Below, in pieces: positions 23,378 to 30,638 of a DNA stretch of 64,000 nt. The stretch comes from an uncultured bacterium (GTDB lineage Bacteria > Cyanobacteriota > Vampirovibrionia > Gastranaerophilales > Gastranaerophilaceae). Made by a program: the position numbers and the translations under genes. The notes beneath the pieces are model-generated. The model searched no databases. It was given only the letters and a program-made list of their open reading frames with translations, and was not told the origin of the DNA. Each line of letters begins with the position of its first letter. The stretch's first letter is position 1. Location: the NCBI GenBank assembly GCA_947428835.1, contig CANENE010000008.1, positions 1 to 64,000 of the forward strand, read 5' to 3'.

Positions 23378-24331
23378 TTGAGCGATGATAGCGTAAAAAC
23401 ATTTGATTATAAGGCATTTGCAACAGACCTGGCAGGTCAGGCAAGTGAAGTTGTGCCTGAAGATATTTCAACAGAAGATAAAGATTTTGTAATTGACATT
23501 ATCTTTCGTTTTTGTGCAATGGCAGGAGATGCTCTTGTTAAAGAAGAAAATTCAAAATTATCGGCATCGGGTGCAAGTCTTATTTGTCAATTTATAGGCG
23601 AGTGGATTTTCCATAAATCAATTGATATTATAAGAGCAAAAATCGATCCTCAATATAGAGAAGGCATTTTGCAAAAAGTTGCTTTTACTGTTTTTGATAT
23701 TGCAAAAAAAGCAGTTGAAAAAGAAATCCCGCAGGATCAAATTATTGTAATTGTTGAAACACAGGTTAAAAAATGCTTTACTGCCGCAATGGAAGATTTA
23801 GCGGGCAGAGGGATATTAGATGAAGAGGTAGCTAAAGACGCACTTAGCCAATCTAATATTGATGCTATGGCAAATCAGCAGGTTCAAGAAGAAGTTGAAC
23901 ATGATATTGCTTCTATGAGTGATGCAAAAATAATCAAGCTCGCCTCTCTTGCAGTTTTGATGAGGAATTTTTCAAGCGAAAAATTAAAAAAAGTATTGCA
24001 GGGTTTTAATAAACCCGAAAGAGAAGTTTTAATAAAATATTTAAAAATGTCTGATTTGGAAGAAAAACTCGACATGAGGGCCACTTTAAGATGTTTTGAA
24101 GAAATAAAAAATACATTACCGGAGGCTGTTGTTGTGAGTTTTGATAAAGCATATAAAAAAATGTATAAAATTGTAAAAAATTCGGAAAAAAATGAAATTT
24201 TGAATATTATAGATAATGAAAGACCTGCTGTCAAAGAATTTGTTTTGTCATGTTATAACAACAAAAGAAAGCAGCTGCCTGCATATGTTGCAGACGTTAT
24301 CTCTAAATATTTAGAAGAAAATGTTTCATGA
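23378..24331 (+). CDS. FliG-position protein (divergent, possible rotor protein)
   Basis: 317 residues, directly between fliF and the fliH-like gene, where fliG normally sits. The sequence is all-helical. I cannot see the usual FliG landmarks (EHPQT-like motif, charged torque helix with conserved R/D residues, SxRAxxxLxEDxE). The middle (about 170-230) has helical hairpins that may match the FliG armadillo region. It may be a very divergent FliG or a protein replacing it. It starts at TTG, with GGGGTAGG as ribosome site. Its stop overlaps the next ATG. Confidence 0.55.
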   Translation: MSDDSVKTFDYKAFATDLAGQASEVVPEDISTEDKDFVIDIIFRFCAMAGDALVKEENSKLSASGASLICQFIGEWIFHKSIDIIRAKIDPQYREGILQKVAFTVFDIAKKAVEKEIPQDQIIVIVETQVKKCFTAAMEDLAGRGILDEEVAKDALSQSNIDAMANQQVQEEVEHDIASMSDAKIIKLASLAVLMRNFSSEKLKKVLQGFNKPEREVLIKYLKMSDLEEKLDMRATLRCFEEIKNTLPEAVVVSFDKAYKKMYKIVKNSEKNEILNIIDNERPAVKEFVLSCYNNKRKQLPAYVADVISKYLEENVS

Positions 24332-25140: not shown

Positions 25141-27225
25141 ATGGCAGCTCCAGCTAGACAATCAAATCCTATAAGTGAAATTGCTCTTGCAGGTTTTGTT
25201 ATAATTTTGATTTTAATTTTGCTTTTAGAGATGCCAAATTGGGTTATTAATTTTTCAATAAGCTTCAATATAACGCTTGGTATTGTTCTTTTGATGATAT
25301 CTTTATATGTTAACAAACCCCTTGAGCTTGCAGCATTTCCTTCAATTCTGCTTTTAGGAACAGTGTTTAGACTTGTTTTATCAATAGCATCTACCCGTCT
25401 TATTTTAGCTAAAGGAGACGCAGGTCAGGTTGTAGAAGCTTTTGGTCAATTCGTCACAGGCGGAAATATGGTAGTAGGAGGTGTAATCTTTTTAATTATC
25501 ACGGTTGTTCAATTTATGGTAATTACAAAAGGTGCTGAGCGTATAGCGGAAGTTTCTGCCAGATTTGCGCTGGATGCAATGCCCGGTAAGCAAATGACAA
25601 TTGATGCCGATTTTAATGCAGGACTTATTTCTCCCGAAGAAGCGGTCAAAAGAAGAGAAGATTTACAAAGAGAATCAAGCTTATACGGGTCAATGGACGG
25701 TGCGATGAAATTTGTAAAAGGTGATACTATAGCAGGTATCATCATTACATTGATTAACATTATAGGCGGCTTAATTATAGGTATTTTATTAAACGGTATG
25801 AGCGCTGAAGATGCCGTAAGCAGATATACAACTCTTACAATTGGTGATGGATTGGCATCTCAAGTGCCGTCACTATTAATGTCAATATCATCAGGTATAG
25901 TGATGACCCGTGCAACAGGAGGCGGTGTTGCTTTGGGGTCTGATTTGGCAGTTCAAATTTTATCTAAACCAACAAGTTTATTTTTAGCTGCGGGATTTCT
26001 TATATTAATTGCGGTGACAGCACCTGTTACAGGGCTTCCCTGGTTTCCTTTTGTTGTTTTTGCAACAGTTCTTATAGTGGGTGGCTTATCAGTTTTAGTA
26101 AATCAAGATGTTCAGCAGCAATTGGGACAATTGGATGCTGTTAAACAAAATATGCAGGATTTGGTTAATCCAAACAAAATGTATGAAAGATTGGGTGTTG
26201 ATGTTTTATCTTTGCAAGTCGGGGCAGGTTTGCTTGTTATAGCAGACCCTGAACAAGACGGGCAATTGCTTGCAAAAATTGCAGCTTTAAGACAAAGAGT
26301 AACGGATGATTTAGGCTACATTATTCCAAATATAAGAATCATGGATTCAAGTGCTATAGGTGATAACGAGTATTTGATTTCAATTAGAGGAAACCCTGTT
26401 GCAACAGGTTCTGTATACCCGGGTAAGCTTATGGTAATATCTGATCAATATGAAGCATTAGGAAAACAATTGCCTGAAAATGCGATTGTATCTGTTGAAC
26501 CTACTTTCCAATCGCAATGTTATTGGCTCAACCCGCAGGCTATAGGTAAAAACGATAAAATCCAGGCGGTGGATGCAGTTGACGTTATTGTAACTCATCT
26601 TCAAGAGTGTGTGAGAAAATACGTTGATGAAGTTATGACAAAAACTGACGTTTTAAAACTTATGGAACTTGTTAAATCACAAGACCCCACACTTGTTAAT
26701 GACCTTGTTCCGACAATTATTTCGACATCTGATTTAAGAAAGATATTTGTAAATTTAATAAGAGAAAAAGTTTCAATCAAAGATATTATCTTTATTTTTG
26801 AAAGACTTTGCGATTATGCAAGATTTTCAAAAGAACCTGATATATTATCGGAGCGCTTAAGGGCTGCTTTGGGACGTCAAATATGTTTGTCTAACGCAAA
26901 TAAAGAAAAAGTTTTGTACGCTCTGACACTTTCTTCTGATTGGGAAAAAACTCTTGATGATTCCTGTCAAAGAACCGAACTTGGAACAATGTTTCTGCTT
27001 AATCCTATGCAGGTTCAAGAACTTATCGAATCTACTGCAAATACTCTAATGCGCGCACAAAGTGCAATCGGAGTCCAGCCTGTAATATTATGCTCACCAA
27101 GAATCAGGCTTCCTTTGTATCAGATGCTTGAAAGACACATTCCAACCATTGTTGTCATAAGCTATTCCGAATTAATTACGGATATTAGAGTTGAAGCTAT
27201 TGATACAATCGGTGAAGAATATTAA
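25141..27225 (+). CDS. flhA: Flagellar export gate protein FlhA
   Basis: 694 residues. The N-terminal half has eight hydrophobic spans. The FHIPEP signature (ERIAEVSARFALDAMPGKQMTID) is intact near residues 138-158, with GAMKFVKGD next to it. The cytoplasmic half from about 340 has the ring-forming domains (LGVDVLSLQVG, AALRQRVTDDLGYIIP, HLQECVRKY). It is the ring of the type III export gate. Its ATG follows the fliH-like gene by three bases. The neighbours flhB, fliI and fliP are not in the window. A conserved pre-FlhA order is therefore only partly kept. Confidence 0.95.
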   Translation: MAAPARQSNPISEIALAGFVIILILILLLEMPNWVINFSISFNITLGIVLLMISLYVNKPLELAAFPSILLLGTVFRLVLSIASTRLILAKGDAGQVVEAFGQFVTGGNMVVGGVIFLIITVVQFMVITKGAERIAEVSARFALDAMPGKQMTIDADFNAGLISPEEAVKRREDLQRESSLYGSMDGAMKFVKGDTIAGIIITLINIIGGLIIGILLNGMSAEDAVSRYTTLTIGDGLASQVPSLLMSISSGIVMTRATGGGVALGSDLAVQILSKPTSLFLAAGFLILIAVTAPVTGLPWFPFVVFATVLIVGGLSVLVNQDVQQQLGQLDAVKQNMQDLVNPNKMYERLGVDVLSLQVGAGLLVIADPEQDGQLLAKIAALRQRVTDDLGYIIPNIRIMDSSAIGDNEYLISIRGNPVATGSVYPGKLMVISDQYEALGKQLPENAIVSVEPTFQSQCYWLNPQAIGKNDKIQAVDAVDVIVTHLQECVRKYVDEVMTKTDVLKLMELVKSQDPTLVNDLVPTIISTSDLRKIFVNLIREKVSIKDIIFIFERLCDYARFSKEPDILSERLRAALGRQICLSNANKEKVLYALTLSSDWEKTLDDSCQRTELGTMFLLNPMQVQELIESTANTLMRAQSAIGVQPVILCSPRIRLPLYQMLERHIPTIVVISYSELITDIRVEAIDTIGEEY

Positions 27226-27300
27226 GAAGTGTTAAAATTGTAGCAATAAAAATTTTGTTGACGTTTCTATGTAGTTGTAGCATACAAAAGGTTTAATAAA

Positions 27301-27846
27301 ATGGATATAGCAATAAGCAGAAGTGATATTTTTGGTTATACTTCAGATAACGAAAAACCTATAAAAGCAGAATTACCTGTCAATGCTCATGCAGTTGATA
27401 ATAAATTAACTGCGGCTGCAGATGTGTTTGATAAATCAGGCGGCGTAGAAATTATCGGAAATTTGTTTGAAGATAAAGAACTCCCGCTTCCTGAAGAAAA
27501 AATAATAAAGCTTGTAGAAGAATGCGGGGACAGATACAGAACTGATATTTTGGTTAGACCCAAAAATGCTCCGGCAGAGGTTTTAGAACAACCACTTGAA
27601 CAAGCCGTAAAAGAAGGAATACAGCCTCCTTGTGAAGAAGTTAAAGAAACTATAAATAAAGATATGCCTGAAACTGTTGAAAAATTGGGTCAGGAAGCAA
27701 AAAAGGCAGGCGAAAGTACTGCAAGAACTTTAAAATCAATGTCTAAAACAACAAAAGGACTTTTGGCGGCACTTGGAACTATTTTAGTTGCGGCAGGCGG
27801 TATATTTATATATAATAAACATGGCAAAAAAGAAAATGTGCGATAA
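27301..27846 (+). CDS. Tail-anchored protein A (paralogue set downstream of flhA)
   Basis: 181 residues, no known domain. A single C-terminal membrane span (about 153-171, LLAALGTILVAAGGIFIY) follows the segment SMSKTTKG and leaves a ten-residue basic tail (NKHGKKENVR). There is no signal peptide, so the long N-terminal part should lie in the cytoplasm. The C-terminal block (xxKGLSKxxKG + Ala/Gly/Val-rich span + K/N-K) is shared with the next two genes. AAAAGG precedes the ATG. It lies 75 bases after flhA. Function unknown; a partner of the export gate is an inference from position. Confidence 0.65.
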   Translation: MDIAISRSDIFGYTSDNEKPIKAELPVNAHAVDNKLTAAADVFDKSGGVEIIGNLFEDKELPLPEEKIIKLVEECGDRYRTDILVRPKNAPAEVLEQPLEQAVKEGIQPPCEEVKETINKDMPETVEKLGQEAKKAGESTARTLKSMSKTTKGLLAALGTILVAAGGIFIYNKHGKKENVR

Positions 27847-27864
27847 GATTTGGGGGAAATAACT

Positions 27865-28233
27865 ATGAAAACAGGCGCAATTAGAACAAGAGAAATACAA
27901 CAAAATCATAATAGAGGTGGCAAATTTAAGCCCGAAGGTTTAAAAAGCACATCTTCCAATACCCTCCCCTCTTTAGTTACGGTATCTGAAATTCAAAAGC
28001 ATGTTAATCAAGGAGGTGCTCTTAAACCTCAGCCTTCTGTTGATACATTTGCTCTTGCTCCAAAACAAAAACCGTTAAATATAGACGAAGCCGGTAAAGA
28101 AGTTCAAAAAGCTGCAAAAGGCCTATCTAAAAAAGCTAAAATTATAGTTGGTATTGTGATGGCAGCAATTGTTGCAGCAGGTGCTGTATTTGCTGTTAAT
28201 AAGAGTAAAGAAAATCAAGAATACCGTGATTAA
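27865..28233 (+). CDS. Tail-anchored protein B with an internal EIQ..N.GG..KP repeat
   Basis: The frame opens at TTG 27850, but the GGGGG at 27852-27857 sits eight bases before ATG 27865, so the shorter start is preferred (122 residues). The N-terminal part contains two copies of a short motif, EIQQNHNRGGKFKP (about 10-23) and EIQKHVNQGGALKP (about 42-55). The C-terminal half has AAKGLSKKAKI and a membrane span (about 92-111, IVGIVMAAIVAAGAVFA), then NKSKENQEYRD. It shares this tail with the genes before and after. The gap from the previous gene is 18 bases, so they are one operon. Function unknown. Confidence 0.65.
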   Translation: MKTGAIRTREIQQNHNRGGKFKPEGLKSTSSNTLPSLVTVSEIQKHVNQGGALKPQPSVDTFALAPKQKPLNIDEAGKEVQKAAKGLSKKAKIIVGIVMAAIVAAGAVFAVNKSKENQEYRD

Positions 28234-28354
28234 TAATAATTTGCGGTAAAATTGCAAAAAGTTATTTCCTTTTTTCTGATGTTTTTATTTCTGCTTGGCA
28301 ATAAAAATTATGTTTAGGTTTTAATATATTGTGCAATAAATAAAGGTTATAAAA

Positions 28355-28978
28355 ATGAACATAGCAAATATTAAAGAAGGTTTCAGGCAACATAGAATTG
28401 CAAATGCCAAAAAAGCAAGACCTTATATCAAACAAATAGATGCAAAAGCAGCTGAAACGGCGAAAGTTGTTGACAGTTTTATTTCTTCCGCAGTTAACAA
28501 AGCAAAACCGACTGTTGAATCTGCAACAAAGAAAGCAATGGAAATTATTGACTCAGGTAAACAAAGGATTGGCATTGACAATAAAACAACTGCAAACAGC
28601 GATGTCTTTGAAAGCCCGTTGTCAAGATTTGCAAGACGCAATTCCGTTGATATGGCAGAAACTCCTAAATATGAAAAAAATGGTTCAACAGGGCTGATTT
28701 TTAAAGAAGTACCGGCTATAGCAGATGAAAGCGAACAAATTCTAAAAGAAACCGGTGTATCTGTAGTCGAAGCTAAACCTGTTTCAGATGCACTTAATAA
28801 TTTAGATGAAGCTGCGAAAGAATTAGGTGATGATGCAGCAAATGCTGCAAAAGGTTTATCTAAGAGCACGAAAGGAATTTTAGCTGTGGCAGCTGCTTTA
28901 GTTGTGGCACTTGGTGGTTTCTTTGCTTATAAAAAACACAGCCAAACCGATGCTGAACAAAAACAAGACAATAAATAG
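28355..28978 (+). CDS. Tail-anchored protein C (paralogue of the two preceding genes)
   Basis: 207 residues, no recognised domain. Helical, Ala/Lys-rich N-terminal part, then NAAKGLSKSTKG and a membrane span (about 171-191, ILAVAAALVVALGGFFAY), with a tail KKHSQTDAEQKQDNK. The AAKGLSK + span + basic tail is nearly the same as in the preceding two proteins, while the N-terminal regions differ. It follows a 121-base gap and may have its own promoter. A bidirectional terminator follows 23 bases after the stop. Function unknown. Confidence 0.65.
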   Translation: MNIANIKEGFRQHRIANAKKARPYIKQIDAKAAETAKVVDSFISSAVNKAKPTVESATKKAMEIIDSGKQRIGIDNKTTANSDVFESPLSRFARRNSVDMAETPKYEKNGSTGLIFKEVPAIADESEQILKETGVSVVEAKPVSDALNNLDEAAKELGDDAANAAKGLSKSTKGILAVAAALVVALGGFFAYKKHSQTDAEQKQDNK

Positions 28979-29060: not shown

Positions 29061-30638
29061 CTACAAATTTATGCATTTTGCGCCGATTACGCCATCAATT
29101 TTTGTAATTTTTTCTAAAATTTCATTATTTAAAGCTTCATCAACATTAATAATCATGTTTGAAACGCATTTATTTTCAAAGTTTTGTACAACCTGCATAC
29201 CTGAAATATTAACGTTATTTGCCCCAACTACAGTAGAAACCAAAGCCACCATATTGGGTTTATTTGTATGAGGGACTAAAAGCATATGTTCTTTTGGTTC
29301 AATACTTGTAATATATTTGTCAATTTTTGTAATTCTTTTTATGCCTTTAGCAATTAAAGTGCCCTCAACTTCAATACAGTTGTTGTCTGTCACTATTTTT
29401 ACCATTATGTTGTCGTTTGGATTATTGGTTTTAGTGCTTTTTACTTCAATTCCTCTTTCTTTTGCAATGATTGGGGTGTTAACGTAATTAACACCTGTTA
29501 CATTTGTGCTTAAGACTCCTTTTAAAATAGCAATTTCAAGAGGGGTGATATCTAAAGAAGCTAATTTTCCCGAAAAATCAATTGCTATTTGTTTAATTGA
29601 GCCTTCTGTGATTTGCGCTGCAATTTGAGCGATATTTTCGCACAATTCCATATAATCTTTAACGGGTTCTAATTTGCCGGGTTTGAGTGCCGGAATATTA
29701 ATAGCACTTGTTGCATCTTTGCCTGATAGCACGTCTGCTACTTGGCTTGCAACATCTACTGCAACATTAATTTGAGCTTCTGATGTACTTGCTCCAAGAT
29801 GAGGAGTTAAAATTGCTTTGTTTCCGAGTGTTAAAAGAGGTGAATTTGCAACATTTTTTTCATCTTCGAAAACATCAATTGCGCATCCTGCAACAAGACC
29901 TTCTTTTATTGCTTCACAAAGGTCATTTTCATTAACGATTCCGCCTCTTGCACAATTTATTATTCTTACACCTTTTTTCATTTTAACAATTGTATCTTTA
30001 TTGATTAAATTAGTTGTATCATTTGTTTTTGGTGTATGAATTGTAATATAATCACAAACAGGCCAAAAATCATCAAGGTTTTCAATATAGGTTGCTCTTG
30101 ATTTTTCAACAATTTCTTTATTTGAAAATGGGTCATATACAAATACTTTCATTCCCAAAGCCATTGCAACATTTGCAACGTGGTGGCCAATTTTTCCAAA
30201 GCCGATTACACCAAGATTTTTATTAAAAACTTCAACTCCAGTGAATTTAGATCTTTCCCAAAGCCCTTGTTTAATTGATGCATCTGCAACAGGGATATTT
30301 CTTGATACTGCCATCATCATTGCAATTGTGTGCTCTGCTGCGGCGTGAGTGTTGCCATCTGGTGAATTTACAACGATAATACCTTTTTTTGTTGCAGCAT
30401 TTACATCTATATTATCAACCCCTACACCTGCTCTAGCAATAATTTTGATGTTTTTTGCAGCATCTATAACTTTGCTTGTGATTTTGGTTTGCGAACGTAT
30501 TAAAATCGCATCATAGTTTCCTATTATTTCGCACAATTTGTCTTCATCCATTGTAGCCAAATTATCGACATCTGCGACTTTAGATACGATATTAACAGCT
30601 AAATCATTGATTTTATCAGTAATTAGCACATGCGCCAT
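29061..30638 (-). CDS. serA: D-3-phosphoglycerate dehydrogenase SerA
   Basis: 525 residues, the long (type I) form. It oxidises 3-phosphoglycerate, the first step of serine synthesis. Catalytic and nucleotide motifs are in order: [11 protein letters not shown]-like segment ([12 protein letters not shown]), [14 protein letters not shown] (NAD), [11 protein letters not shown] and [13 protein letters not shown]. After an extra intervening (ASB-like) domain at about 320-450, an ACT domain fills the last 75 residues ([25 protein letters not shown]), suggesting feedback by serine. The ribosome site GGAGGAG lies at an optimal distance. serC is at 7743, so the pathway is split. Confidence 0.95.

Follow-up and report, generated by a model that had tools for sequence, protein, structure and literature searches.

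Three tandem genes for tail-anchored proteins downstream of flhA in an uncultured member of the Gastranaerophilaceae

Here, we describe three tandem open reading frames (ORFs), designated A, B and C, that lie on the forward strand immediately 3' of flhA in a 64,000-nucleotide stretch of DNA from an uncultured bacterium of the Gastranaerophilaceae (assembly GCA_947428835.1, contig CANENE010000008.1, positions 1 to 64,000; hereafter the window). Each encodes a protein whose only transmembrane (TM) segment is at the C-terminus, and the three C-terminal tails are related to each other. On balance, and with modest confidence, we read A, B and C as a tandem family of tail-anchored proteins of the inner membrane that is restricted to one species, diverges fast and has its own leader; the proteins would tether variable cytosolic arms to the membrane, and flhA would be an incidental neighbor. 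A preliminary description of this DNA had instead connected them with the flagellar export gate. The present work corrects that reading, which was drawn from the gene neighborhood; the signal that we find lies in a set of tail-anchored proteins that is confined to one taxon and duplicates, together with a variable spacer between serA and mlaE.

Three coding genes with one C-terminal anchor each

ORF A (27301..27846) encodes 181 amino acids, ORF B (27865..28233) 122 amino acids and ORF C (28355..28978) 207 amino acids. The length of B is counted from the ATG at 27865, which is preceded by GGGGGA and was preferred over a TTG at 27850 that is also open. Codon usage was scored per codon, with a model trained on long ORFs from the same genome. 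In frame, A, B and C score 0.373, 0.340 and 0.396, respectively, against a long-gene mean of 0.236 for the genome; the two other forward frames are strongly negative and the reverse frames reach 0.08 at most. Since the in-frame scores exceed the genome mean and all other frames are clearly lower, the three ORFs are coding genes.

A hydropathy scan finds a single hydrophobic segment in each protein, located at the C-terminus, and no signal-like TM segment at the N-terminus, so that all three belong to the topology class defined by one TM segment in the last ~55 residues and none earlier. ORFs with a single C-terminal TM segment are few in this genome: 6 of 398 in a 441 kb sample (the window and 377 kb from elsewhere in the genome), and A, B and C are three of those six. 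The preliminary description had reported three tandem tail-anchored ORFs right behind flhA, and in this it was correct.

A shared tail module

The tail module, consisting in A of a basic pre-TM helix, the TM segment and a short basic tail, spans 27658..27843 in A, 28063..28230 in B and 28775..28963 in C, all on the forward strand. All three match a profile of the tails, A at an E-value of 5.2e-34, although this profile was built from A, B and C themselves. Pairwise tail scores are 75 for A and B, 116 for A and C and 92 for B and C, whereas the best score against 320 unrelated TM segments from the 441 kb of own-genome sequence is 56. We also compared the tails with shuffles in which residues were permuted inside 12-residue blocks, which keeps the hydrophobic layout. 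The real score was reached by 2 of 2000 shuffles for A and B and by none of 2000 for either A and C or B and C. The pre-TM stretch is significantly similar by itself, and a search with ORF C alone recovered both A (1e-8) and B (1e-4). The similarity of the tails is therefore real paralogy beyond TM composition, and the earlier claim of divergent paralogues with a common C-terminal anchor holds. The comparison with random TM segments, the most stringent of these controls, follows one that the preliminary description had itself suggested. In its own genome, the three-tail profile finds A, B and C at 1e-25 to 1e-34, partly by construction, and beyond these nothing convincing; the best further match, at 5e-4, is a TM segment near the N-terminus of another protein.

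The duplication is also visible in the DNA ahead of the genes. A and C have about 85 nt of upstream DNA in common: the candidate promoter or leader of A, including its first codons (27243..27313, forward strand), was copied in front of C (28298..28367, forward strand) at a spacing of 1054-1055 nt. Two blocks make up the match, 27243-27273 with 28298-28328 (81% of 31 nt, spacing 1055 nt) and 27293-27313 with 28347-28367 (81% of 21 nt, spacing 1054 nt). The local alignment scores 57 against 20 +/- 3 for shuffled sequence, and none of 500 shuffles scored as high. The tandem duplication thus copied the gene plus its leader, and the duplicated leader speaks for upstream signals proper to A and C.

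The cytosolic arms are mostly dissimilar, as the preliminary description had stated for the N-terminal parts, with the qualification that the arms of A and C both contain DNKxTAxxDVF (p about 0.01). Pairwise comparison of the remaining N-terminal parts revealed no mutual similarity. The arm of A is acidic, with a net charge of about -12, compared with +6 for B and +1 for C; given these unequal charges, a common binding partner is not required. The arm of B contains two 15-residue repeats of the form EIQxxxNxGGxxKP (repeat score 45 versus 15 +/- 3.4). AlphaFold models of A and C have a predicted local distance difference test (pLDDT) score of 45 and 50, respectively, too poor for fold comparison. 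In A, helices are predicted at 112-145 and 149-173, the latter corresponding to the TM segment (about 149-173), with pLDDT of about 70-77 near the tail and low confidence in the arm. For C, the low-confidence model has an N-terminal helix at about residues 3-71.

Taxonomic distribution

Searches of 333-383 genomes of the family turned up no full-length homologue of A, B or C, and the weak matches obtained are mostly to the tails. Whole-genome sequence searches recognized no homologue in congeners either. These searches begin with a loose first pass, and they missed a gene in genome G002 that was found only by synteny; 'absent' therefore means here that there is no sequence-recognizable homologue. 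Among GTDB contigs and IMG/VR viral contigs, no homologue was confirmed with queries A2 and C, in a search from which records near the own genome were possibly excluded. Profile searches of Pfam, NCBIfam, PHROGs, PADLOC and PDB returned no credible family for A, B or C. Judged from these searches, the three genes are taxonomically restricted and, among the genomes compared, nearly unique to one species. A phage origin was also considered and set aside, there being no viral match.

The position beside flhA

The flhA gene (25141..27225, forward strand; 694 amino acids; TIGR01398, 686 bits) ends at 27225, leaving a 75 bp gap before the start of A on the same strand. A single contig of a single draft genome is the source of this junction. 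All congeners searched contain an FlhA match, which in nearly all of them is full-length and 90-95% identical, yet these genomes are without recognizable A, B or C. The gene that follows flhA changes among the congeners (rluD-like, purine phosphorylase, pnp, PSP1-type or permease), and in two other genera it is fliI. A conserved linkage of A, B and C to flhA across species was therefore not found: flhA is kept, its neighbor is changeable and, as far as homologues exist, none is linked to flhA, an outcome that the preliminary description had named as refuting its reading. Because congeners have no recognizable homologues and a different downstream gene, the adjacency is a trait of one genome. 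It is best seen as incidental, since A and C own a leader and the tail-anchored genes of this genus sit at varying loci. Going by sequence, A, B and C probably lie next to flhA by chance and probably have no flagellar role. A published survey notes that the flagellar gene set is incomplete in many Gastranaerophilales (PMC4040986).

Some further observations were made on flhA and its surroundings. In most congeners, FlhA is accompanied by another FlhA/SctV-like protein (about 39% identity) and often by a third, incomplete one; genome G000 has two matches only. In the window, fliF and fliH flank a 317-amino acid ORF (23378-24331) that occupies the fliG position and has no Pfam or NCBIfam match. 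In genome G010 (L024), a sequence resembling signal recognition particle RNA by eye lies about 560-740 after flhA, near an apparent transposase remnant.

Other tail-anchored genes and the serA-mlaE spacer

On its other side, C converges with serA (phosphoglycerate dehydrogenase; 29061..30638, reverse strand), and 83 bp separate the end of C from the 3' end of serA. Comparison of the serA 3' stretches of congeners (L148, L153-L156, L159-L161, L164 and L166) indicates that the spacer between serA and mlaE varies, with one or two genes for C-terminal-TM proteins in about ten of 24 congeners. Such a gene converges with serA, about 100 bp or less from the end of serA, in G002, G011, G016, G018, G019 and G021. 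In G004, G013 and G020, a gene for a C-terminal-TM protein of 327-336 amino acids is oriented as serA, and G009 has one convergent gene and one in the direction of serA. The proteins of G016, G018 and G021 have a second, N-terminal segment flagged by the hydropathy scan, so only some of the spacer genes encode strict tail anchors. The 327-336 amino acid proteins form a family that carries FSQENRxRNT...

The G002 gene, which encodes 87 amino acids from its likely start, is located exactly at the position of C. Among ~540 local ORFs, no other tail-anchored protein apart from A, B and C themselves matches the A/B/C profile better than its product (E 0.014). We regard the gene as a possible positional counterpart of C, with orthology unproven.

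A second small tail-anchored family, restricted to the genus, is defined by FHxQ...GYxxIPxxTLxP (G010, G013, G017 and G023; L142, L143, L144 and L146). Its genes are found at pfkA/typA, beside a dctA-like gene or at mlaE (near mlaE in one congener), and the first two of these sites are further loci of tail-anchored genes in the congeners. Like A, B and C, these proteins are small (about 134-154 amino acids) and combine a variable arm with an Ala/Lys-rich tail anchor; unlike them, they have their own conserved N-terminal motif, which A, B and C lack. ORF B is weakly related to the G017 member (E 0.006, reciprocal 0.003), outside the N-terminal motif. Membership of A, B and C in this family, judged by the motif together with the A3 profile, gave a negative result, with no A3 match in genome G000 at E <= 0.01. 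A promoter motif shared by the leaders of tail-anchored genes was sought as well: 4 of 10 leaders, compared with 3% of ORFs, carry TAGCAA at -80 to -35, but it was picked post hoc and is retained as a lead only.

Outside the genus, similar tails are carried by long glycogen-synthase-like (GT5-type) proteins of a sister genus (G059, G131 and G156). Their tail, EAA...GMSKGAKIALGAGAALVALGGAYFAMNK, is very like that of A, B and C and matches the A/B/C tail profile at E 2.5e-10, whereas their open frames exceed 1100 amino acids and their soluble part is different. This likeness may reflect descent or convergence. GT5-like proteins with the PSRFAPCELTDLE motif and an A/B/C-like tail anchor were noted in G059, G031, G131, G156 and G104 (L039, L040, L069, L071 and L072).

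In a separate observation, an N-terminal motif resembling VSFxG/INFKS was seen within the first 45 residues of 9 of 522 proteins, where 3.8 +/- 1.6 are expected (examples include L110:17159, L115:14098, 40163 in the window, L179 and L194). It is possibly, on weak grounds, a sorting signal.

Interpretation

In the model that we favor, a copying event duplicated one gene with its leader, as the DNA shows for A and C, and the membrane module stayed recognizable while the cytosolic arms diverged or were replaced. The C-terminal helix would drive post-translational insertion, leaving the N-terminus probably inside, and the Lys/Ala-rich pre-TM segment may lie as an amphipathic helix along the membrane surface. 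A small-residue face of the TM segment (AGG/ALGG) could permit pairing of the paralogues. The set would then hold an assortment of flexible arms at the inner membrane, serving as tethers or scaffolds in the general manner of ElaB, YqjD and YgaM. Several points weigh against this model. The scaffold or tether role is one that we infer; the charges flanking the TM segments leave the topology undecided; read-through co-transcription from flhA is possible, with A only 75 bp behind it on the same strand; and the genes that congeners carry beside serA are only weakly supported as homologues of A, B and C, block shuffles giving p 0.03-0.07 for G002.

We consider it rather unlikely that A, B and C are decayed or newborn orphan genes with no stable function, in which case TM-containing ORFs would arise easily in this A+T-rich lineage and turn over quickly. 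Their restriction to one species, their fast-diverging arms and the variable tail-anchored genes at several loci of congeners would all suit such an origin. Against it, codon usage is above the genome mean, the frames are intact, and tail and leader were kept after duplication, which together imply selection on the three genes.

A functional analogy with ElaB, YqjD and YgaM, stress-phase proteins whose cytosolic arms tether ribosomes or protect the integrity of the membrane, also seems unlikely for A, B and C. The N-terminal part of YqjD binds ribosomes (PMC6389858, PMC5525287), and the helical N-terminus in the low-confidence model of C would fit; the strongly acidic arm of A is unlike a ribosome binder, and the sequences, compared below, are not similar.

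It is more doubtful still that a single swappable tail-anchor module (an Ala/Lys helix, GxSKxxK, a small-residue TM segment and an NK/KKH end) has been placed across the bacterial family on unrelated soluble parts as different as small disordered arms and GT5-like enzymes. If true, a pool of fast-changing proteins would be expected to share a membrane docking site or an insertion route. Finally, that A, B and C are adaptors at the export gate or the pole, helping to place or regulate the gate, is suggested by the position of A but is very improbable in view of the congeners' FlhA without A, B or C, the varying gene downstream of flhA and the duplicated leader.

Comparison with described tail-anchored proteins

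The preliminary description knew of no described family of this form, which is too strong a statement: ElaB, YqjD and YgaM of Escherichia coli (DUF883) share the form of A, B and C (PMC6389858, PMC5525287). By sequence, membership in DUF883 is ruled out. The DUF883 Pfam models do not match A, B or C at E <= 1, and pairwise comparisons with ElaB or YqjD of E. coli K-12 score at shuffle level (p 0.05-0.55), whereas the positive control, ElaB against YqjD, scores 220 versus 45 +/- 11. ElaB and YqjD are both 101 amino acids long, share 42% identity along their length and have a Gly-rich TM segment and RR at the end; A, B and C measure 122-207 amino acids and have only the tail in common among themselves. 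By analogy, a similar mode of action is possible.

Bacterial tail-anchored proteins are little studied, and a lineage rich in them would be well suited to questions on insertion and fast turnover. In a survey of Streptomyces coelicolor, such proteins were described as having a single C-terminal TM segment and no signal sequence, and the tails alone were enough for membrane targeting (PMC3087755). A, B and C share both features with this class, which is one of topology and not a sequence family, and they are not among its known members. They are thus new sequences of an already known kind of protein.
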